Origin: Clostridium sp.
GTDB taxonomy: Bacteria > Bacteroidota > Bacteroidia > Bacteroidales > Bacteroidaceae
Direction of reading: 5' to 3'
Assembly: GCA_023663705.1 (NCBI GenBank)
Contig: JAMPGY010000001.1
Span: forward strand, 295,448 to 333,589
Length of the DNA stretch: 38,142 bases
The position numbers and the translations under genes were made by a program. This document shows positions 225 to 35,664 of this stretch, one piece after another; position 1 is the first letter of the stretch; each line of letters opens with the position of its first letter. The notes under the pieces are model-generated. The model was not told the DNA's origin and did no database searches. It was given only the letters and a program-made list of their open reading frames with translations.

Positions 225-3200
225 ATGAAAAGAGCTATACGCTTCAGCTTATTGGCCGCCTACCTGGCGCTTCCCGGAGCACTGCAGGCTGCGGAAAGCG
301 AAGGCGACACCCTATGCGTGCGACTGAAATCCGGAACCGTGGATGTGTTCACATCCGAGATACTGACGAGTTTCAAACAAACCCCGGACAGCCTATGCCT
401 GACCCTGATTACCGACACCGTGATACGGTATCACTTGGACAACATCGAAGGAATTGACACCGAACCGGGCGAACTGCCTGTTTTCAAAAGCTACAAGTTC
501 AACAACAAATACAATCATCAGCTGCCCACGGACGTTTTTGGCGAAATCACTCCCGACCGGGTGAGCGCCAGTGTAGGCGCCATTGGCAAATGGCTCACGG
601 CCTCATTCTCGCTGAATGATGCACGCGGCACGGCCTACGTAGACGGGCAGGAGCAAGTGAGCAAGGAGTCGCGCCTGCACTTCGATAACCCCGTCGTGTA
701 CACGCTGGCTCTGCCGGGCATGCGCACGCTCACGCATAAAAAGGTGAAGGATGAGGTGTGGAGCAATCCGGACGAAAACATCGTCCTCACTCCCCTTAAG
801 CTGACGGCAGACATGCTCTCCACCAACGCTCCGTCCAACTACGATGAAGGGCTGGACAAAATGATAGACGGAGATAACTCCACCTATTTCCACTCCACAT
901 GGGGTACCGGAGACTATGAGAAACTTCCCCTGGACGAATGCCCTTACGTGCAGATTCACCTCAACAAAAGAATAAAGAAATGGGTGATGGATTATATCAC
1001 CCGACCGGATGCCGCAGACCGCTGCCCCTCCAGTTTCCTCCTGCAGGCCAGCAATGACGGTGTGAACTGGACGGACATCCGCACTCTGACCGAAGAAGAC
1101 GGACTGCCCACATCCGGTTACTCGCAAACGTATCAGTCACCGGTCATCAGCATGGATACGGAATACGAATTCCTTCGTCTGACCATGCTGACAGCCACCT
1201 ACAAGAATTACCTCTGCCTGTCGGAACTTTCCATCTCGGAAGTGACGTGGGAAGGAGACAGCGATGTGCCCGTGCTGATTTCACCGGCCGAATACGAATA
1301 CTGCTGGATGCCTTTCGGACGCGAAGTGACCGTGGACGTGGATTGGCTCACAGACCATGCCACCAACGTGCCACGTATTGACATCAATATCGAAAACAAC
1401 CTGGTTCCCTACGACAAAGTGACTTATCTGAACGCCCATATCACGATAGACGGCGGAGGCGTATTTGCCGACTTTGAGGACGACGTGCGCATCAAAGGAC
1501 GTGGCAACACCAGCTGGGCGGGAGCCTACGGCAAAAGCCCCTATCGGCTGAAGTTCGCTTCTGCCGTGAAACCCTTCGGGCTGACCAAGGGAAAAAACTG
1601 GGTGCTGCTGGCCAACAATCAAAGCACCTCCATGATGACCAACGCACTAGCCATGAAGATAGCCAAAATGGCCGGTACGGCCGGAGCAAACGACATCATA
1701 CCCGTTGAGTTATATCTGAACGGCAAATACCGGGGTAGTTACAACTTCACGCAACACGTGGGACTGAGCAACAACAGCATTGACTTGGACGATGAGACGA
1801 ACTCCGTATTCATCGAACTGGACTCTTACTATGACGAAGACTATAAATTCCGCGATTCGTCGTACAACCTGTACGTGAACATAAAAGACCCCGACATCGC
1901 CGAACTGGAAAACGGTACCGAACGCTTCAAGCTGATACAGTCGGACTTCAACCGCTTCACCGCAGCCGTAAAGAACGGCTCGGACTATGCGGAACTCATC
2001 GACACGGAGATGCTGGCCCGCTTCCTTTTTGTCAACGAACTGGTGCTCAACCTCGAACTAAGCCATCCCAAAAGCACCTTCCTCTACAAAGAGGACCTGC
2101 TGGCACTACACAGCCGTTATGTGTTCGGCCCCGTCTGGGACTTCGACTGGGCTTTCGGCTATGAAGAAGATGGCGAATACTGCACTTCCACCCCCAATGT
2201 GGACTACTACAGCGAACTGTTCGGCTACGGCAAACCGTTCTTCAATGCCCTGCGCTTCAACAGCGAAGAAATGCGACGGACCAGCTATGCCGTATGGAAG
2301 AACTTCGTGGAAAAGCACATAGACGAACTTTCGGACTACATCAACGAATACTATGCCTATGCGCGTCCCTCGTTCGAGAACAATGCCACGGTGTGGAGCG
2401 ACGGTTCCAAATACGCCACCATCGCAGAAAACATGCGCTCCTGGCTGGTCAACCGCGCCCATTACGTGTACGACAACATAGAGACGTTCGACCTGACCAC
2501 CCCCATGCCCATCACCGTGGGCGACGTGAACAAGGACGGTGCCATCACCATGGCCGATGTGGTGTGCGTGCTCAACTACCTGCTGGGGCAAGACAACGAG
2601 AGCTTCAACTTTGAACAGGCCGATGCCGACCCCGACGGCGAAATCACGGTAAACGACATGGTGCATATCATAGCCCTGGTGATGAACCAGCCGACCGACC
2701 AGTTGCGCCATCTGCAACTGCCGCTGGCCGAGGTAACACTGCAACCCGGCAATTTCGACATCGCTCCCGGACAATCCTCCGTACTTCCGATCACGCTCCG
2801 GATTAACGAGGGCAGCTATAGCGCCATGCAGGCCGACCTCACGCTACCGGAAGGTATGACACTGGACGAGGTGACGCTGACAGACGCCCCTCAAGCGCAA
2901 ATACAGACGGCGGAATTGCAGGAAGGCCACTACCGCCTCACACTCCACACCGCAGACGGACAGGCATTGCCCACAGGCGAGACCGCACTGCGGCTTACCG
3001 TCACAGCCACCCGTATGATTCCGCAGGCCGAGCGTGTGGTCAGCATCAGCAATTCCCTGATGGCCGACACCAGCGGTGAGGACAACCGGATTGCCCCCCG
3101 TTCCACCACATTCAACCTGAGCACAGAGACAGGAATCGATGAAACCGCTTCGTCTGCCTCCTACAGCATACGGGGCGGTGAAGCCCTCTCTGTGGAAAGC

Positions 3201-3338
3201 ACCGGCGCCGGACAAATCCGCATCTATCTGACGGACGGACGGCTGTTGCGCACGTGCGACATCGAAGCCGGATTCAACCGCATCGAACTGCCGCGCGGCA
3301 TCTATATCGTAAACAACGAAAAGATTATCATTAAATAA
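225..3338 (+). CDS. Secreted CotH-kinase family protein with discoidin, dockerin and cohesin-like domains
   Basis: A 1037-residue exported protein with a signal peptide (residues 1 to about 22, ending ALQA). A short beta motif (about 27-78) precedes an F5/8-type-C/discoidin-like region (about 190-345). The CotH domain runs about 380-740, with GRGNTSW at 425-431 and PVWDFDWAFG near 636-645. Residues 766-821 form a dockerin with two calcium-loop repeats, GDVNKDGAITMADV and DADPDGEITVNDM. A cohesin-like beta domain follows (about 836-960, signature YSAMQADLTLPEGM), then a sorting-like tail ending LPRGIYIVNNEKIIIK. CotH domains have a protein-kinase-like fold. The substrate here is unknown; a surface glycan- or protein-associated role is inference. 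It is the first gene of an operon, with the next gene starting 10 bases downstream. Confidence 0.85.
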   Translation: MKRAIRFSLLAAYLALPGALQAAESEGDTLCVRLKSGTVDVFTSEILTSFKQTPDSLCLTLITDTVIRYHLDNIEGIDTEPGELPVFKSYKFNNKYNHQLPTDVFGEITPDRVSASVGAIGKWLTASFSLNDARGTAYVDGQEQVSKESRLHFDNPVVYTLALPGMRTLTHKKVKDEVWSNPDENIVLTPLKLTADMLSTNAPSNYDEGLDKMIDGDNSTYFHSTWGTGDYEKLPLDECPYVQIHLNKRIKKWVMDYITRPDAADRCPSSFLLQASNDGVNWTDIRTLTEEDGLPTSGYSQTYQSPVISMDTEYEFLRLTMLTATYKNYLCLSELSISEVTWEGDSDVPVLISPAEYEYCWMPFGREVTVDVDWLTDHATNVPRIDINIENNLVPYDKVTYLNAHITIDGGGVFADFEDDVRIKGRGNTSWAGAYGKSPYRLKFASAVKPFGLTKGKNWVLLANNQSTSMMTNALAMKIAKMAGTAGANDIIPVELYLNGKYRGSYNFTQHVGLSNNSIDLDDETNSVFIELDSYYDEDYKFRDSSYNLYVNIKDPDIAELENGTERFKLIQSDFNRFTAAVKNGSDYAELIDTEMLARFLFVNELVLNLELSHPKSTFLYKEDLLALHSRYVFGPVWDFDWAFGYEEDGEYCTSTPNVDYYSELFGYGKPFFNALRFNSEEMRRTSYAVWKNFVEKHIDELSDYINEYYAYARPSFENNATVWSDGSKYATIAENMRSWLVNRAHYVYDNIETFDLTTPMPITVGDVNKDGAITMADVVCVLNYLLGQDNESFNFEQADADPDGEITVNDMVHIIALVMNQPTDQLRHLQLPLAEVTLQPGNFDIAPGQSSVLPITLRINEGSYSAMQADLTLPEGMTLDEVTLTDAPQAQIQTAELQEGHYRLTLHTADGQALPTGETALRLTVTATRMIPQAERVVSISNSLMADTSGEDNRIAPRSTTFNLSTETGIDETASSASYSIRGGEALSVESTGAGQIRIYLTDGRLLRTCDIEAGFNRIELPRGIYIVNNEKIIIK

Positions 3339-7612: not shown

Positions 7613-8881
7613 CTATCCGCCGAAGTTGTCGTACATGATAGACGACTCTTCCACGCCAAGGTCGGTGAGCATAGCCACAACAGCCTTCGACATCGGACCG
7701 GGTCCGCACATGTAGTATTCGATGTCCTCAGGCGCATCGTGATCCTTCAGGTAAGTGTTCAGCATCACCTGATGAACAAATCCGGCCGTATACTTCACGC
7801 CGGCTGCGTCTGCAGCGGGATCCGGACGGTCGAGTGCCAAGTGGAAGTGGAAGTTGGGGAATTCCTTCTCCAGTCCCATGAAGTCCTCCAGATAGAACAC
7901 CTCGTTGAGCGCGCGCGCACCGTAGAAATAGTGCATTTCGCGGTCGGTGGTGTGGAGCGTCTTGGTCATGTGCATAATCTGTGCACGAAGCGGAGCCATA
8001 CCGGCACCACCACCTACCCAAATCATCTCCTTCTTGGAGTCGAAGTGCGGATGGAAGTCTCCGTAAGGACCGCTCATGATAACCTTGTCGCCGGGCTTCA
8101 GCGTGAAGATGTAGGAAGAAGCGATACCCGGGTTCACCTCCATGAATCCGCTGCGGTCGGCCTTGAACGGCGGAGTAGCGATACGCACGGTGAGCATGAA
8201 CACGTCGCCCTCGGCCGGATAGTTGGCCATGGAATAGGCACGCACGGTAGGTTCGGGATTGACACACTTCAAGGGGAACAAACCGAACTTCTCCCATGCG
8301 GGCAGATATTCGTCGCCAATCAGGCTCTTGTCAATATCCTTGTCGTAGTCCATCGAGAATGCAGGAATCTTGATCTGAGCGTAAGAACCGGGCAAGAAGT
8401 CCATGTGGGCACCGGCCGGGAGCTGCACCTTGAACTCCTTGATGAACGTAGCCACGTTCTTGTTGGAGATAACGGTACACTCATACTCCTTGACGCCCAT
8501 AACGGATTCGTCAACCTTGATGCCCAAGTCGCCCTTCACCTTCACCTGGCAACCCAGACGCCAGTTCTCCTTAATCTGCTTGCGGGTGAAGTGTCCCTTC
8601 TCCGAGTCGAGGATTTCACCGCCGCCTTCTACCACCTGACACTTGCACTGTCCGCAGGAGCCCTTACCGCCACAGGCGGACGAGAGGTAGATGCCCTGCT
8701 CGGAGAGCGTAGACAGCAGGCTGGAGCCCTGTGCCACGGAGATGGTCTTGTCTCCGTTGATTGTCAAATTTACATTTCCGCTCGGCGACAGGAATTTCTT
8801 TGCCACCAGCAGGATGATTACCAGCAGAAGTATTATAGCGAGGAATACTCCAATGCTCGCAAAAATAAAATTCATATCCAT
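7613..8881 (-). CDS. nqrF: Na+-translocating NADH:quinone reductase subunit F
   Basis: A 422-residue electron-entry subunit of the Na+-NQR pump. It oxidises NADH in the cytoplasm and passes electrons through FAD to a 2Fe-2S centre. An N-terminal membrane anchor (about 6-27) is followed by a ferredoxin domain with cluster ligands Cys70, Cys76, Cys79 and Cys111 (CGGKGSCGQC...C). The FAD-binding motif RAYS is at 214-217, the NAD-binding GGGAGMAPLR at 290-299, and CGPGPM lies near the end. It terminates in FGG as usual for the family. An AAGGAA ribosome-binding site precedes the ATG. It is the last gene of the operon, 19 bases after nqrE. Confidence 0.98.
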   Translation of the reverse strand: MDMNFIFASIGVFLAIILLLVIILLVAKKFLSPSGNVNLTINGDKTISVAQGSSLLSTLSEQGIYLSSACGGKGSCGQCKCQVVEGGGEILDSEKGHFTRKQIKENWRLGCQVKVKGDLGIKVDESVMGVKEYECTVISNKNVATFIKEFKVQLPAGAHMDFLPGSYAQIKIPAFSMDYDKDIDKSLIGDEYLPAWEKFGLFPLKCVNPEPTVRAYSMANYPAEGDVFMLTVRIATPPFKADRSGFMEVNPGIASSYIFTLKPGDKVIMSGPYGDFHPHFDSKKEMIWVGGGAGMAPLRAQIMHMTKTLHTTDREMHYFYGARALNEVFYLEDFMGLEKEFPNFHFHLALDRPDPAADAAGVKYTAGFVHQVMLNTYLKDHDAPEDIEYYMCGPGPMSKAVVAMLTDLGVEESSIMYDNFGG

Positions 8882-8900: not shown

Positions 8901-9527
8901 TTAAATGTTCAAACCGGAGAAACACATAAATGCCATGGCCATCAGTCCCACTGTGATGAAGGTGATGCCCAGTCCCTGCAACGGCTTGGGCACATCGGTG
9001 TAGGCCATCTTCTCGCGGATAGCCGCAAGAGACACGATGGCCAGCAGCCAGCCGATACCCGAACCCAGCGCATAGGCCAGAGAATCCCAGATGTCGCCGA
9101 TGGCCTGCGAGCTTGTGGCGGGATCCATCTGAATGCGCTGCTGCATGAACAGCGAGGCACCCATGATGGCGCAGTTAACGGCAATCAGCGGCAGGAAGAT
9201 ACCCAACGCGGCATAGAGGGAGGGAGAGAAACGCTCCACCACCATCTCCACCAACTGCACGATGCCGGCGATGACGGCAATGAACAGGATGAAGGCCAGA
9301 TAGGTGAGGTCGATGCCGAAAATACCATCGGCAGCGAGCACCTTGGTCTGCAACAGATAGTCGACGGGCACGGTGACGAGCAACACGAAGGTTACCGCCA
9401 CGCCCAGTCCGAGCGCTGTCTTCACGTTCTTGGATACAGCCAGATATGAACACATACCCAAGAAGAAAGCGAATATCATATTGTCCACAAAGATAGAGCG
9501 GACAAACAAACTTAATAAATGTTCCAT
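8901..9527 (-). CDS. nqrE: Na+-translocating NADH:quinone reductase subunit E
   Basis: A 208-residue polytopic membrane subunit with six predicted helices, paralogous to NqrD. Cys26 (in GMCSYLA) and Cys119 (in AVNCAIMG) match the conserved cysteines that, with those of NqrD, hold the intramembrane iron-sulfur centre. [19 protein letters not shown] is typical of the family. It lies 29 bases downstream of nqrD. Confidence 0.98.
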
Positions 9528-9556: not shown

Positions 9557-10189
9557 TTACTTCTTTTGTTTTCTGTCGTTGTATGCACGCTGTGCCCAGA
9601 TGAAGCAACCCAGCAGAATCAAGGCCATGGCGGGCATGGTCATCATACCGTTGTTCATATAGCCCATCTCGTACACACAGTCGGGCACAATCTGCATGCC
9701 GGCCAGCGAACCGCTGCCCAGCAACTCACGCACTGCACCCACAACCACCAGCACGAAGGCATAGCCGAGGCCGTTGCCGATACCGTCCAGGAAGCTCTCC
9801 CACGGGCCGTTCATCATGGCGAATGCCTCCAGACGTCCCATCAGGATACAGTTGGTGATAATCAAGCCCACATACACCGACAGCTGAACGCTCACGTCGT
9901 AGGCGAATGCCTTGAGCACCATGCTGACCACCGTTACCAGCGCGGCCACCACCACAAGCTGGATGATGATGCGAATACGGTTGGGGATGGTCTTACGAAT
10001 CAAAGAAATAATCAAGTTGGAGAAAGCAGTGATCACCGTCACAGACAATCCCATCACGATGGCCGGCATCAGCTGTGAGGTTACAGCCAAAGCTGAACAG
10101 ATACCCAATACCTGAACGGCCACGGGGTTATTGAGATTCAACGGTGAGGAAAGAACTTCTCTATTCTCTTTTGAAAACAATTTACTCAT
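9557..10189 (-). CDS. nqrD: Na+-translocating NADH:quinone reductase subunit D
   Basis: A 210-residue membrane subunit. Cys31 (GICSALAVT) and Cys114 (ITNCILMGRLEAFAM) are the conserved intramembrane cluster cysteines. The motif GPWESFLDGIGNGLGYAFVL is diagnostic. AGGATAAAGAC precedes the ATG. It begins 17 bases after nqrC. Confidence 0.98.
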   Translation of the reverse strand: MSKLFSKENREVLSSPLNLNNPVAVQVLGICSALAVTSQLMPAIVMGLSVTVITAFSNLIISLIRKTIPNRIRIIIQLVVVAALVTVVSMVLKAFAYDVSVQLSVYVGLIITNCILMGRLEAFAMMNGPWESFLDGIGNGLGYAFVLVVVGAVRELLGSGSLAGMQIVPDCVYEMGYMNNGMMTMPAMALILLGCFIWAQRAYNDRKQKK

Positions 10190-10206: not shown

Positions 10207-11061
10207 TTATTCGTTAGTCGTTAAAAAAGTGAGATAGTTGCTCAAACAGTCTTTCAACATGTTCTTCACACCATTGCTGGTGAGCGTCGCACCGGTAACA
10301 GCATCACATCTGTTTTCAGCGGCAACATTATCGTCCTTCTGCGAGGGCTTCATCACAGTGAGAGCCACTTCCGTACCCTTTGCGTTCAGTACCTTCTTGT
10401 TCTCAAACTGCTTCTGGAAGGCTGTCTCCTTGATGAGGGCACCCAATCCTGCGGTCTCACTCTCGTGAGAGAAGTACACACCATATACGGTGTTCTTGTC
10501 GGCATTAAGAGCTACATAGCCCCAAATGCCGCCCCACAAACCCTTACCGGTCATAGGGAGTACATATTTTACCTCACCGTTCACATTGCATACATACAGG
10601 GGAAGATTGTCATTGTTGATTTCCTTATTTTCGACACGGAAACCGTCTTGATCCTTTGATTCACCTTCCTTTACCACCACACCGGCGTTGGTAATGATCT
10701 CATCGGCTGTCACCACTTCCATATACTTGGCCTCAACGTCGGAGTTAGCAAGGTCACGAATGTTCAGGGCAGCCAAAATCTGACTCTTCTTATCAATTTC
10801 CACATTAGCCTGCGAACGAGCCTCTAAAGCCTTAGACACAAATGCCAGCAGAAAAGCCACGATGATTACCACCAAAATAGCATAGATAATCGTGTAGATA
10901 TTGCTGTTCGTATCGATACCCTTCTTCTTCGGCTGCACTGCTGCTTCTTTCATTTCTTCAAATTCCGAAGAGGGAACCTGACATTGCGGACATTTGGCAG
11001 GTGCGGCATCACCTTCATGAATGTAGCCGCATACTTTACATTTAAATTTCTTTGTAGCCAT
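10207..11061 (-). CDS. nqrC: Na+-NQR subunit C with an N-terminal rubredoxin-like domain
   Basis: A 284-residue protein. The ATG at 11061 is chosen because AAGGA lies just upstream and it starts 10 bases after the nqrB stop; an upstream extension would run into nqrB. Residues 1-36 are a rubredoxin-like (rubrerythrin-type) iron domain with ligands Cys8, Cys11, Cys24 and Cys27 (CKVCGYIHEGD...CPQCQVP). A Lys-rich linker (38-48) leads to one transmembrane helix (about 55-76) and then the normal periplasmic NqrC domain. The covalent-FMN motif is present as TGATLTSNG, with Thr259 the expected attachment residue. NqrC carries electrons from NqrB-side cofactors within the sodium pump. The N-terminal domain is not part of standard NqrC as I know it. 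Confidence 0.95.
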   Translation of the reverse strand: MATKKFKCKVCGYIHEGDAAPAKCPQCQVPSSEFEEMKEAAVQPKKKGIDTNSNIYTIIYAILVVIIVAFLLAFVSKALEARSQANVEIDKKSQILAALNIRDLANSDVEAKYMEVVTADEIITNAGVVVKEGESKDQDGFRVENKEINNDNLPLYVCNVNGEVKYVLPMTGKGLWGGIWGYVALNADKNTVYGVYFSHESETAGLGALIKETAFQKQFENKKVLNAKGTEVALTVMKPSQKDDNVAAENRCDAVTGATLTSNGVKNMLKDCLSNYLTFLTTNE

Positions 11062-11071
11062 ATTCCTTGTT

Positions 11072-12238
11072 TTATTTGATTGCACGTTTAGCACGCTTGC
11101 TGATGTTGCTTTGGTATACGCTGTAGTCGATAAGAGAAGCGAATACATTCATCAACAGAATAGCAAGCATCATTCCTTCAGGATAACCAGGGTTGAGCAC
11201 ACGGATGATAACCGCCATGGCACCGATAAGGAAACCATATACGAACTTACCCTTCTCCGTACGGGCCGAGGTGACAGGATCGGTAGCCATGAAGACGGCA
11301 CCGAAACAGAAACCGCCCAGCACCAAGTGCTGATACCAAGGCAAAGCTGCCACAGCATTGCCTTCCGGGCCGAACTGGTTGAACAGGATACCCATCAAAG
11401 CACCGCCGACAAATACACTGACCATAGTCTTCCAACTGGCCACACCGCTCCACAGGAGGATGAGCGCACCCAAAGCAATAGCAATAACACTGGTCTCACC
11501 GATAGAACCGGGAATAAGCCCCACAATCTGATCCCACAGTGAACTGCTGATATCAGTACCTGTGGCAGCCTGCCCCAAAGGAGTGGCAGCCGTGAAACCA
11601 TCGGCCAAGGTGTTGCCCAGACCGAAGATACTATCCTTAGCCACCCAGCAGGATTCACCGCTCATAGCCGTGGGGTAGGCAAAGAACAGGAATGCACGGG
11701 TTACCAAAGCCACATTGAAGATGTTCATACCCGTTCCACCAAACACTTCCTTGGCAAATATCACGGCGAAAGCACAAGCCAAAGCCAGTATCCACAACGG
11801 ACATTCCACCGGCACAATCAGAGGAACGAGCATACCTGTCACCAGATAGCCTTCATGAATTTCCTCTCCTTTCCACTGAGCCACGACAAATTCGATACCC
11901 AGACCCACCAAATAGGAAACAATGATCTTAGGCAGTACAGCCAGAAAACCGAAACCGAACATTTCAAGGAATGTTCCGTCCATACCGGCCTCCTTATAGT
12001 TTTGATAACCTACGTTGTACATACCGAACAACAACGCAGGTATCAACGCGATTACCACAAACGACATGATGCGCTTACTGTCGATGGCGTCATGCACATG
12101 TACTCCCGATTTCGACGTGGTGTTGGGCACGAACAAGAACGTCTCGAAGCCGTCGAACACCGAACGGAAAGCGTGAAGTTTGCCTCCCTCCTCGAAGTTC
12201 GGCTTTATCTTATCGATATAATTTCTTAACGCGTTCAT
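11072..12238 (-). CDS. nqrB: Na+-translocating NADH:quinone reductase subunit B
   Basis: A 388-residue polytopic membrane subunit, the main Na+-translocating and quinone-site subunit. It binds riboflavin and a covalent FMN. The expected FMN attachment site is Thr219 in DGFTAATPLGQ, which corresponds to the DGFxGATxL motif. HEGYLVTGMLVPLIVP and the FGGTGMNIFNVALVTRAF stretch are typical. It is followed after 10 bases by nqrC and preceded 32 bases upstream by nqrA. FMN attachment needs ApbE, which is not encoded in this window. Confidence 0.98.
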   Translation of the reverse strand: MNALRNYIDKIKPNFEEGGKLHAFRSVFDGFETFLFVPNTTSKSGVHVHDAIDSKRIMSFVVIALIPALLFGMYNVGYQNYKEAGMDGTFLEMFGFGFLAVLPKIIVSYLVGLGIEFVVAQWKGEEIHEGYLVTGMLVPLIVPVECPLWILALACAFAVIFAKEVFGGTGMNIFNVALVTRAFLFFAYPTAMSGESCWVAKDSIFGLGNTLADGFTAATPLGQAATGTDISSSLWDQIVGLIPGSIGETSVIAIALGALILLWSGVASWKTMVSVFVGGALMGILFNQFGPEGNAVAALPWYQHLVLGGFCFGAVFMATDPVTSARTEKGKFVYGFLIGAMAVIIRVLNPGYPEGMMLAILLMNVFASLIDYSVYQSNISKRAKRAIK

Positions 12239-12270: not shown

Positions 12271-13623
12271 TTAAGCCATTTCCTTACGGAGCATGTCCAA
12301 GCCTTCGCGCACGATACGCTGAACTTCCAATTTGGAAGAATCGACAAACTCACACAGGGCAAAGTCCTCTGGAGCCACCTCATAGATGCCCAAGGCTTCC
12401 ATGCGGTCAATGTCTCCCGTGATGATGGCCTTTACCAATGCCTCGGGGAAGATGTCCATCGGGAACACACTGTCGTATTCACCGGACATTATCATGTGGC
12501 GTTCGCCGCCCTTAATGCGGGCATCAAGAACATATTCCTTCTTCTTGCCAAACATCCAGCTCATATAAGAACGGCTGGTGGAGAACTGATCGCAACGGGG
12601 CATGATCCACCCCAGCATCTCATGTACATCGTCTCCTTCGGGAATCACGTTCACTTCCGTGGCATGGGCTGCCAAGAAACCATCGTCCGTAGTCTTCACA
12701 CCTGTCATTACGTTGCCGTTGATGATGCGCACGTTCTTTCCCTCGCAAACGTTTCCTTCCAGCAAAGTGTTGAGTTGCTGCCCCACCGTCATTTCGCAAT
12801 AAGCGGGCTTCTTTACTTCCGAACCAGCCAAAGCTATTGTACGTGTAAAGTTTACCTTGCCGGTGTTGAAAAGGCGTCCTATAAAGATAACCTCCTCGGC
12901 ACCGATGGTCCATACGATCTCACCTTTGTTCACGGGACATACGTGATTGATATGCACACCCACGTTACCGGCCGGAGCCGGGCCGTCGTAAACGGTCACT
13001 GTCACGCCCGTCGCATTTTTCAGCGCGGAAGAAGTCTGCTTAGCACTGACACCCAAATGAGTAGGAGCCAACTTGGCCAGCACGTCCAGTCCGGTCTGAA
13101 AATCCTTTTCCTGTCCGTTGAGTACATACTCAAAATCAGCCGTCAAAGGCATTGAATTGAAGGCTGACACGAAGATGGCCTTGGGCGTATCCTCAGGAGA
13201 AGCTGTCACGTCATAAGGACGCTGCTTGAAGAAAGCGAACAGACCGGACTCCAACAGAAGTTCCTTCACAGCCTCGCCGTTCATCTCCCTCACATTCTTG
13301 ACCTGAAAATCCACATACTGTTGCTGTGCGTCGGCTTCCACCTGAACGCTCAGCACCTTACGACGCTCGCCACGCTCCACCAAGGTAACCTTACCGCTGA
13401 CTGGAGACACGAACTTTACCGAAGGATGGTTTTTGTCAATAAACAAAGCATCCCCGGCCTTGACGCAGTCATCTTCCTTGACCACCACTTTGGGCTTAAC
13501 ACCGGGAAAATCATCCGGAACAAGTGCATACTTGCCGGAAGCTTTTACCGCAAATTTGTCCAAAGAAGCTTTTCCTTTCAGATTTACATCAAGGCCTTTA
13601 CGTAACTTGATTACATTTGCCAT
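12271..13623 (-). CDS. nqrA: Na+-translocating NADH:quinone reductase subunit A
   Basis: A 450-residue hydrophilic subunit, the usual length. It begins MANVIKLRKGLDVNLKGKA, and the barrel-sandwich segments resemble those of RnfC (HPSVKFVSPVSGKVTLVERG). NqrA sits on the cytoplasmic face and contributes to ubiquinone or menaquinone binding. It is the first gene of a complete nqrABCDEF operon. Its promoter lies in the 94-base region shared with the divergent tamB-like gene. Confidence 0.98.
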   Translation of the reverse strand: MANVIKLRKGLDVNLKGKASLDKFAVKASGKYALVPDDFPGVKPKVVVKEDDCVKAGDALFIDKNHPSVKFVSPVSGKVTLVERGERRKVLSVQVEADAQQQYVDFQVKNVREMNGEAVKELLLESGLFAFFKQRPYDVTASPEDTPKAIFVSAFNSMPLTADFEYVLNGQEKDFQTGLDVLAKLAPTHLGVSAKQTSSALKNATGVTVTVYDGPAPAGNVGVHINHVCPVNKGEIVWTIGAEEVIFIGRLFNTGKVNFTRTIALAGSEVKKPAYCEMTVGQQLNTLLEGNVCEGKNVRIINGNVMTGVKTTDDGFLAAHATEVNVIPEGDDVHEMLGWIMPRCDQFSTSRSYMSWMFGKKKEYVLDARIKGGERHMIMSGEYDSVFPMDIFPEALVKAIITGDIDRMEALGIYEVAPEDFALCEFVDSSKLEVQRIVREGLDMLRKEMA

Positions 13624-33630: not shown

Positions 33631-35664
33631 TTAAATACAATGCAGATGAACCTCCATTACCGCCTTGTATTCCTTGCCATCCGTATGTCTGTAGACGATG
33701 GCCTGACGAACCACATATTCCTGTCCGGACACCAGCCGGCCGGGATATTGTCCCACATAGCAACCGTATTTATCCGGATAGAATTCCGCAAAAATACGGG
33801 CGTTGCCATCGTAACCGCACACATTGCCTGTGGCTGTGAACCAATGTCCGAAACAAGTGGCGGAACTGGTGGAGGTGGTTGTATTGTCGGTCATACCACC
33901 CCCGGAACTAATGCCTGCAAAACGTATGGAATTGTCCGTGCCCACCCGAACCGACTTCATCTGCTGCGTGCTCAACCCCAGCGCCTCACTCACCGCATCC
34001 ATGTCGTACTGCACACGCACGGAAGAGTAGCTATCCGCACTACGCTTCAGATTGGCATGCAGAACCACCACCGTATCGCGACGCTCATAGTCCTCCGGAT
34101 ACACTCCGTAGGTTCGGAACATTCCCGAGGGCGAGGACTGATCGAATTTCACCCGATAGGGCCACTGCTCATCATTGTCCGTGTTATCGTCCCAAGCATG
34201 GCGCCAGTATTCAGTCGGGGCACCCATCACAACAAACCACAGATGGGTGCAATCGTCCGGCACAACAATGGACGCCTCGCCCTCCCGGTCACTCTGCATA
34301 TCACCATACACACGGGTCTCCCCTCGAGTGTAGGCCACAAAACCATAACGCCATCCAGCCTTGTCCACGTTCACCCGGCGGTACCCATCGGCACCGGCAA
34401 CTCCCTTGAAAACAGCTTTCACCTCCGTCCCCGCGGCAGGCACTTTCAGGGGTATCATGTTGTAACCGTAGTTTTCGGGACAATAATCGGCGTCCACCTC
34501 CCACCATCCTTCAGCATCGGCCGCTTCGTGCATCCGGGCGGCAAAGTCGCCGATGTGACTCTTGCCGTATTCACGCAAACCGTCCAAGTCCCAAGTGGCC
34601 AGGCGGGCACTGCATTCATACATTTCGTCACCAAAAGTTTTCACGTCCACTCCCGTCATCCTCATATAGGCTTCCACAGGATCCTCGGGACGCTCCGCCT
34701 CACGCCACATGCGGCCAATGAAGTCCTGCCCGTGCTTCATACACCACCAGTCCTGCACAAACATATTCTGATAGCGCAGCGTCTCATGCATCAGATTCAG
34801 ATGATACTGTCCTTTATAGGCCGCATAGAAATCCTGCTCGAACTTCAGGTGCGGATATGCCTTGTAGGCCTGCCAGTTGGCACAACCTTCCCACCATCCG
34901 TTTCCGCCGGAACAGTCGGGACCGAAACCATAGTCGAAACCGTGAGGTTCGCCCAAGTCACACTTCACCAGATATTGGAACGTGTGACCGATTTCGTGAG
35001 CTACGGTCTGCCCGTCACGCGAACTGACAGCTCCGGGACTTACGTTGAACGCCCCGGTTTTGAAGTCGTATCCCGAACCGTTAGCCACCCAATCGGTCTG
35101 ATAATAGACGTACATCTGTATCTTATATTTATCTGTGGTTGATTCGCCTTCTTTCAGAAACCCCAGTTCTTCGGCATACAATTTGAAATAGCGCTCGCCA
35201 TTCTCAAGCAATTTTGTCGGATTGAAGGCATAGCTACCGGCCTTGGTTGGATCGGCGCCAAAACCTTTTTCCCAAAACACGATGTAGTGCTCCGACTCCA
35301 TGCTCCGCGCAAAGCTCCAACGGCTGTTGTCGTCCGTGTAGTCGTTTCCGGCCCAGTTACTGGCCTTATACACGATGCGCCCGGGATTTTCAAATTGATA
35401 TACTCCGTCCTTACCGTACACCTTCATATCCCCTTTCACGCCGTCATCCGTGGTTTTATACATTACCATGTAGTTCTTACGGAACTCTAAAGAATCATAT
35501 CCGGAAAGATCTATCTCCACATTTTCTTTCGAACGGTCGTCATATCTGAACCAAAGCGTATTGTATTTTTCCTGTGCTTTTACCTGCGGAAGGATGGTAG
35601 CCATCGCCAACAGAGCACATGCCATTCTTTTCATTTTCCTTACTGATTGTTTTGTCGTTTTCAT
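33631..35664 (-). CDS. Secreted DUF6055/DUF4859 metalloprotease-like protein
   Basis: A 677-residue exported protein with a signal sequence ending LPQVKAQ (about 31; an internal Met11 could also start it). An N-terminal beta segment (about 34-100) precedes a DUF6055-type domain with a zinc-protease motif HEIGH at 223-227 and a downstream WWEGCANWQ in which Glu259 is a candidate third ligand, a gluzincin-like layout. The C-terminal part (about 540-677) resembles DUF4859, with CGYDGNARIFAEFYPDKYG and VGQYPGRLVSGQEYVVRQAI. Activity is not established; host-glycoprotein or cell-surface protein degradation is a guess. It lies 19 bases downstream of the small protein gene at 35684 and is probably co-transcribed with it. 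Confidence 0.8.
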   Translation of the reverse strand: MKTTKQSVRKMKRMACALLAMATILPQVKAQEKYNTLWFRYDDRSKENVEIDLSGYDSLEFRKNYMVMYKTTDDGVKGDMKVYGKDGVYQFENPGRIVYKASNWAGNDYTDDNSRWSFARSMESEHYIVFWEKGFGADPTKAGSYAFNPTKLLENGERYFKLYAEELGFLKEGESTTDKYKIQMYVYYQTDWVANGSGYDFKTGAFNVSPGAVSSRDGQTVAHEIGHTFQYLVKCDLGEPHGFDYGFGPDCSGGNGWWEGCANWQAYKAYPHLKFEQDFYAAYKGQYHLNLMHETLRYQNMFVQDWWCMKHGQDFIGRMWREAERPEDPVEAYMRMTGVDVKTFGDEMYECSARLATWDLDGLREYGKSHIGDFAARMHEAADAEGWWEVDADYCPENYGYNMIPLKVPAAGTEVKAVFKGVAGADGYRRVNVDKAGWRYGFVAYTRGETRVYGDMQSDREGEASIVVPDDCTHLWFVVMGAPTEYWRHAWDDNTDNDEQWPYRVKFDQSSPSGMFRTYGVYPEDYERRDTVVVLHANLKRSADSYSSVRVQYDMDAVSEALGLSTQQMKSVRVGTDNSIRFAGISSGGGMTDNTTTSTSSATCFGHWFTATGNVCGYDGNARIFAEFYPDKYGCYVGQYPGRLVSGQEYVVRQAIVYRHTDGKEYKAVMEVHLHCI

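Follow-up and report, generated by a model that had tools for sequence, protein, structure and literature searches.

The window (the whole stretch of DNA analysed, 38,142 nucleotides) holds an intact nqrABCDEF operon on the minus strand, with the six subunit genes in order from position 13623 down to 7613. These are nqrA (12271..13623, TIGR01936), nqrB (11072..12238, TIGR01937), nqrC (10207..11061, TIGR01938), nqrD (9557..10189, TIGR01939), nqrE (8901..9527, TIGR01940) and nqrF (7613..8881, TIGR01941), whose product presumably supplies electrons to the domain described below. The third gene, nqrC, encodes 284 amino acids with a rubredoxin-like domain at the N-terminus. The preliminary description had placed it at 10207..11061, in a single frame with a good ribosome-binding site; the coordinates and the Shine-Dalgarno-like signal stand, and the strand, which had not been stated, is the minus strand. 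The plus strand of 10207-11061 is broken by stops, and the minus strand is translated into the 284 residues. The sequence directly 5' of the nqrC ATG is CAAGGAAT, and the Shine-Dalgarno-like AAGGA (11064..11068, minus strand) lies in the 10 nt that separate nqrB from nqrC. An upstream ATG at 11148, in the same open frame, would yield 313 amino acids; it is not the likely start, because most of the added stretch lies within nqrB. A start reading MA... behind an A/G-rich Shine-Dalgarno sequence is common to all nine congeners examined. Elsewhere in the window, a plus-strand gene (225-3338) encodes a protein of 1037 aa whose domains are F5/8 type C, CotH kinase and dockerin type I, and a minus-strand gene (33631-35664) encodes a 677-aa protein with two domains of unknown function, DUF6055 and DUF4859.

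The rubredoxin-like domain of NqrC occupies residues 6-35 (10957..11046, minus strand) and is of the short-spaced kind, with C8, C11, C24 and C27 arranged as CxxC-12-CxxC. It matches Pfam RUBY_RBDX (PF21349) with an E-value of 3.3e-14 and 52.5 bits (gathering cut-off 26.5). On the same strand follow a Glu/Lys-rich linker (residues 36-50, 10912..10956) that varies in relatives, a transmembrane helix assigned by eye to about residues 56-76 (10834..10896; NqrC models start at residues 50-53) and an FMN_bind domain (residues 174-274, 10240..10542, Pfam E 2.5e-18). The FMN attachment motif TGATLTS (10276..10296, minus strand) is present and marks the predicted site of attachment; G257, T259 and T261 of this region are invariant in 39 rows. 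In 93 of the 94 fused rows, repeats of one genome included, the stretch between F34 and the YxxxY of the helix measures 13-27 residues (median 21). Pfam gave no Rubrerythrin or Ferritin domain match in this protein, and its zinc-ribbon matches were weak and below cut-off. The identity as NqrC rests on TIGR01938 (192.5 bits, cut-off 144); the match begins at residue 52 of 284, so the protein does not start at the transmembrane helix, which makes it a variant and is no ground to leave the NqrC family. The earlier outline of a rubredoxin-type domain in frame before a Lys-rich linker, a transmembrane helix and FMN_bind is borne out. The FMN domain of NqrC is described as periplasmic in the available text of PMC10643135 and PMC12174285, and the rubredoxin-like domain should therefore be cytoplasmic, in support of the cytoplasmic N-terminus that had been predicted. 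The structure 3lwx aligns only from residue 72 of the Parabacteroides distasonis NqrC and for this reason offers no view of the rubredoxin-like domain. In one other locus (L020), the C-terminus of nqrC carries a Cys-/Glu-rich tail beyond the FMN domain (EGGCEEGADECCDENSND in the alignment).

A search for this architecture over the Bacteroidales, proposed in the preliminary description, found the fusion spread over the order. The family sample comprised 201 genomes, 51 of which had weaker or no matches and were left unclassified; among the 150 classified genomes NqrC was fused in 56 and plain in 94. Fused rows were called by the four-cysteine pattern, and the presence of four cysteines in every one of them is true by construction; a Met-initiated extension of about 30 residues or more without four cysteines occurred in none of the 150 classified rows. 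At least six rows of the order sample (295 genomes) begin at the domain, namely the window's own, G427, G241, G486, G304 and G218. The phylum sample of 395 genomes, 104 with any match and only six of these belonging to the Bacteroidales, contained the join of domain and NqrC only in G000 and G304, both Bacteroidales, and no fusion was seen in it outside this order. A scan of named records, in which CKVCGY[VI]H was one of two patterns, returned 63 fused and 17 plain NqrC among the best 80 loci, a set that gives neither a frequency nor absence elsewhere. Among these best 80 loci, MAGs of Paraprevotella are the closest named relatives, at 63-71% identity, and on this basis the window is assigned to that genus. 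Named records with the fusion include Segatella paludivivens, Parabacteroides chinchillae, P. bouchesdurhonensis and P. distasonis An897, and fused MAGs occur also in the Paludibacteraceae, Salinivirgaceae and Marinilabiliaceae; plain NqrC is found in, among others, Bacteroides pyogenes, Alloprevotella rava and Prevotellamassilia timonensis. That a single genome gained the domain privately was rejected, as the fusion recurs across the family and order samples. Since many relatives are without it, the domain is an accessory of NqrC. Seven of the 56 fused genomes (G047, G068, G131, G159; G110, G038, G124), from two genera of the sample, have CGQ or CGK in place of CGY and have lost the His, with the four cysteines kept (CGQ/CGK...CPICGA; loci L256, L257, L265, L276, L279, L298 and L312). 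Such divergent domains can mean zinc or an altered redox site.

Among ten congeneric genes (45 pairs) the median pN/pS was 0.066 for the domain, 0.194 for the transmembrane and FMN parts and 0.287 for the linker; the rubredoxin-like domain is the most constrained part of NqrC in this set. This value, together with the same N-terminus in other families of the order, excludes a chance fusion, and by these comparisons of genes the fusion is real and not an artefact. Its history was followed on a pump tree of NqrB, the NqrC core and NqrD, with the domain left out. There were 146 loci with NqrB and NqrC; rows more than 97% identical to a kept row or shorter than 400 residues were dropped, and the tree has 116 rows (69 fused, 47 plain). 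The window's row and the Paraprevotella rows form a starred set of ten. A single set of 94 (support 83, not starred) contains all 69 fused rows, and the rows outside it, all plain, comprise the class- and phylum-level rows and most rows from other families of the Bacteroidales. The fused/plain label changes 11 times on this tree (8 changes are forced by starred branches) compared with 36.7 times when shuffled, and 13 times on the family tree. The 89 NqrC domains show two changes on a free tree of the 31 domain columns; forcing them into a single clade gave a likelihood 2.4 higher (AU p 0.534), so that a single origin of the domain is not rejected. Distances between domains and between pumps are correlated (Mantel r 0.35), with none of 2000 permutations as high. 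The pattern fits one old gain and about ten losses of the domain, and transfer may stand in for some of the losses. Four fused rows from the Salinivirgaceae, the Marinilabiliaceae and family f19 (L079, L084, L100, L122) are nested within the Bacteroidaceae on the pump tree, which points to horizontal transfer of the nqr operon. The N-termini of plain Prevotella NqrC, such as MANETKKGLNTNSN (L113), appear to resemble the fused N-terminus minus the domain.

The nearest kin found for the NqrC domain, by identity and by profile, is the N-terminal rubredoxin of reverse rubrerythrin. Against 23 reverse and 22 classical rubrerythrin sequences, 88 of the 89 unique NqrC domains were nearer by identity to the reverse type and one was a tie; all 89 scored higher with the reverse than with the classical profile, and hhalign gave E 2.4e-26 for the reverse and 2e-17 for the classical rubrerythrin. 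In the 31-column domain tree the rubredoxins of reverse rubrerythrin form one group (support 85), as do those of classical rubrerythrin (starred). Descent from the C-terminal rubredoxin of classical rubrerythrin was rejected by the identity and profile scores. The potential of NqrF is roughly -0.2 to -0.3 V. Two residues beside the iron, Asn and His, occur in 20 and 21 of the 22 classical rubrerythrins, respectively, and both are absent from all 89 NqrC domains; the available text of PMC6033852 ascribes the high potential of classical rubrerythrin to them (citing Luo 2010) and gives near -110 mV for a short rubredoxin without them. For two reverse rubrerythrins +10 and -10 mV are reported in the available text of PMC7482061. 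From these published potentials and the lack of Asn and His, that of the NqrC domain is probably near or below 0 mV, and NqrF could, judged by potentials, reduce it. The tail of the NqrC domain has a mean charge of -2.2 and that of reverse rubrerythrin is slightly basic (+0.7); such opposite charges would suit docking of the two.

The genome of the window encodes one reverse rubrerythrin (C26), two classical rubrerythrins (C42, C2) and one soluble rubredoxin (C41). Reverse rubrerythrin, scored as present at a best E under 1e-40, was found in 52 of the 56 fused genomes and in 66 of the 94 plain ones (Fisher p 0.0009). Phylogenetically independent pairs went the same way in 2.5 and the other way in 0.1 of 9 cases (median p 0.5), and on this count no link between fusion and reverse rubrerythrin is shown. 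Three fused genomes (G050, G088, G119) had no detected reverse rubrerythrin or soluble rubredoxin, with classical rubrerythrin present, and in a fourth (G068, 84% complete) none of the three was detected. The domain as a substitute for soluble rubredoxin was rejected: the latter is missing from 10 of 56 fused and 11 of 94 plain genomes, and from 12 more of unclassified NqrC type. Stand-alone rubredoxin-like ORFs beside nqr, outside NqrC, numbered two in 230 loci, both in a fused locus of the Paludibacteraceae (L075). There, 1.5-2.6 kb past nqrF and on the other strand, lie a reverse rubrerythrin, a free-standing short rubredoxin of 38 aa and a Fur-family gene; the same domain thus exists there as a small protein of its own, next to reverse rubrerythrin, an arrangement seen in this one locus of 230. 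The same region (L075:9600-12194) also holds an RNase H and an ORF with weak similarity to alternative oxidase (19.4 bits, below the cut-off of 22.7). A Fur-like ORF, looked for with a simple pattern, occurred close to reverse rubrerythrin in 19 of the 35 loci, among them 10 of the 12 Paraprevotella loci, and not in the window's genome. The guess in the preliminary description that rubrerythrins are partners of the domain gains weight from its kinship with the reverse rubrerythrin rubredoxin; the genome association is not significant after phylogeny.

Our tentative reading, put at somewhat below an even chance, is that the domain serves as a tethered cytoplasmic one-electron carrier from NqrF to rubrerythrin-type peroxide and O2 reductases. 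A short-spaced rubredoxin like the N-terminal one of reverse rubrerythrin would have been recruited long ago. Its Fe(Cys)4 centre would have a potential closer to 0 mV than to +200 mV, the flexible linker would let it collect single electrons from the [2Fe-2S]/FAD side of NqrF, and it would hand them to soluble rubrerythrin-type reductases, so that NQR might double as an NADH:rubredoxin reductase once oxidants appear. For the carrier speak the domain and NqrC scores, the strong constraint on the domain, its kinship, the missing Asn and His, the linker length, the opposite tail charges, the L075 neighbourhood and the frequency of reverse rubrerythrin in fused genomes. Against it count the loss of significance of that last association after phylogeny, the four fused genomes in which reverse rubrerythrin was not detected, the seven genomes without CGY and His, and the rarity of the L075 arrangement. 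The fuller picture of a branched pump, in which electrons from NADH have two ways out, one through NqrD/E to menaquinone, coupled to ion pumping, and one through the rubredoxin to rubrerythrins, is possible and somewhat more doubtful. The main rival of the carrier is a structural or sensing Cys4 knuckle, holding zinc or labile iron, with a role in assembling or stabilising the pump or in shutting it down in response to oxidants. The seven genomes that keep four cysteines without CGY and His speak for it, as do the weak sub-cut-off zinc-ribbon matches. NqrC would also be a natural place for control: the available text of PMC10643135 describes it as a mobile switch subunit, its helix tilting as NqrD/E change redox state. 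Against it stand the rubredoxin features, which are mostly kept (Tyr in 64 and His in 63 of 66 unique NqrC domains), and the kinship with an electron-transfer rubredoxin; we consider it doubtful, if a serious candidate.

It is improbable that the domain donates electrons to NqrD/E of the pump itself. The linker would permit the reach of the flexibly tethered one-electron domain that, according to the available text of PMC10643135, approaches the NqrD/E cluster from the cytoplasm in the known pump, but a carrier of about 0 mV would be ill suited to feed the low-potential chain toward menaquinone, and the operon in the window contains no donor gene. A docking module that binds partners such as fumarate reductase, with the metal only as structural glue, is less probable again. 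Excerpts of PMC8516057 describe a supercomplex of NQR and fumarate reductase in Prevotella bryantii, which would favour such a role; however, NqrC of P. bryantii is short (210 aa; available text of PMC6560451), so that this supercomplex forms without need of the domain. Translation from the internal Met37, which had been named as a route to refutation since the domain would then not be made, is scarcely credible and was rejected. The residue exists in the window's gene, the only one of the ten congeneric genes to have it, but it is missing from the nine congeners examined, a Shine-Dalgarno sequence lies at the first ATG, and the low pN/pS of the domain argues for its translation.

Full-text searches of openly licensed papers gave none with a title or abstract on a fusion of NqrC and rubredoxin, in agreement with the preliminary description, which knew of none; a description may exist elsewhere. 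PMC5924567 was the one paper found to contain both NqrC and rubredoxin, and its available text mentions them in separate places. Among PMC6560451, PMC10739449, PMC8516057, PMC8238504, PMC12174285 and PMC4014512, rubredoxin and rubrerythrin were each looked for in four and did not occur. NqrC with a rubredoxin-like domain is thus, as far as the genomes indicate, a real and conserved variant for which no description was found. The structures and models of NQR in the available text of PMC10643135, PMC10739449 and PMC12174285 count six cofactors. NQR is an NADH:quinone pump of abundant gut anaerobes, and its electron map would have to be redrawn if a whole clade had an extra one-electron centre on the cytoplasmic side. 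The physiological electron donors of the Clostridioides difficile rubrerythrins are stated to be unknown in the available text of PMC7482061, and the carrier would suggest, in a form open to experiment, where rubrerythrins get their electrons. If true, a branched pump would supply the missing donor for peroxide and O2 defence in gut anaerobes, tied to respiratory control. Even with zinc, a conserved extra domain on a mobile switch subunit bears on the control of the pump.

Compared with known NqrC (TIGR01938; Vibrio cholerae 7xk3 and 8a1t, fragment 3lwx), the transmembrane helix, FMN_bind, TGATLTS and place in the operon are all alike; known NqrC starts at the transmembrane helix, whereas the window's NqrC has 50 residues with the Cys4 domain ahead of it. 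The rubredoxin of reverse rubrerythrin aligns gap-free over the 31 columns of the domain, at 60% mean identity, and has the same low-potential residues, but the NqrC domain differs in having no ferritin-like di-iron domain, in its acidic tail and in being anchored to the membrane on NqrC. The C-terminal rubredoxin of classical rubrerythrin (PF21349) is alike in Cys spacing and general fold family, at 43% mean identity. In the class F flavodiiron protein of C. difficile, a short rubredoxin is the internal relay of an NADH-driven enzyme (available text of PMC6033852); unlike NQR, that enzyme is a soluble O2 reductase with no ion pump.
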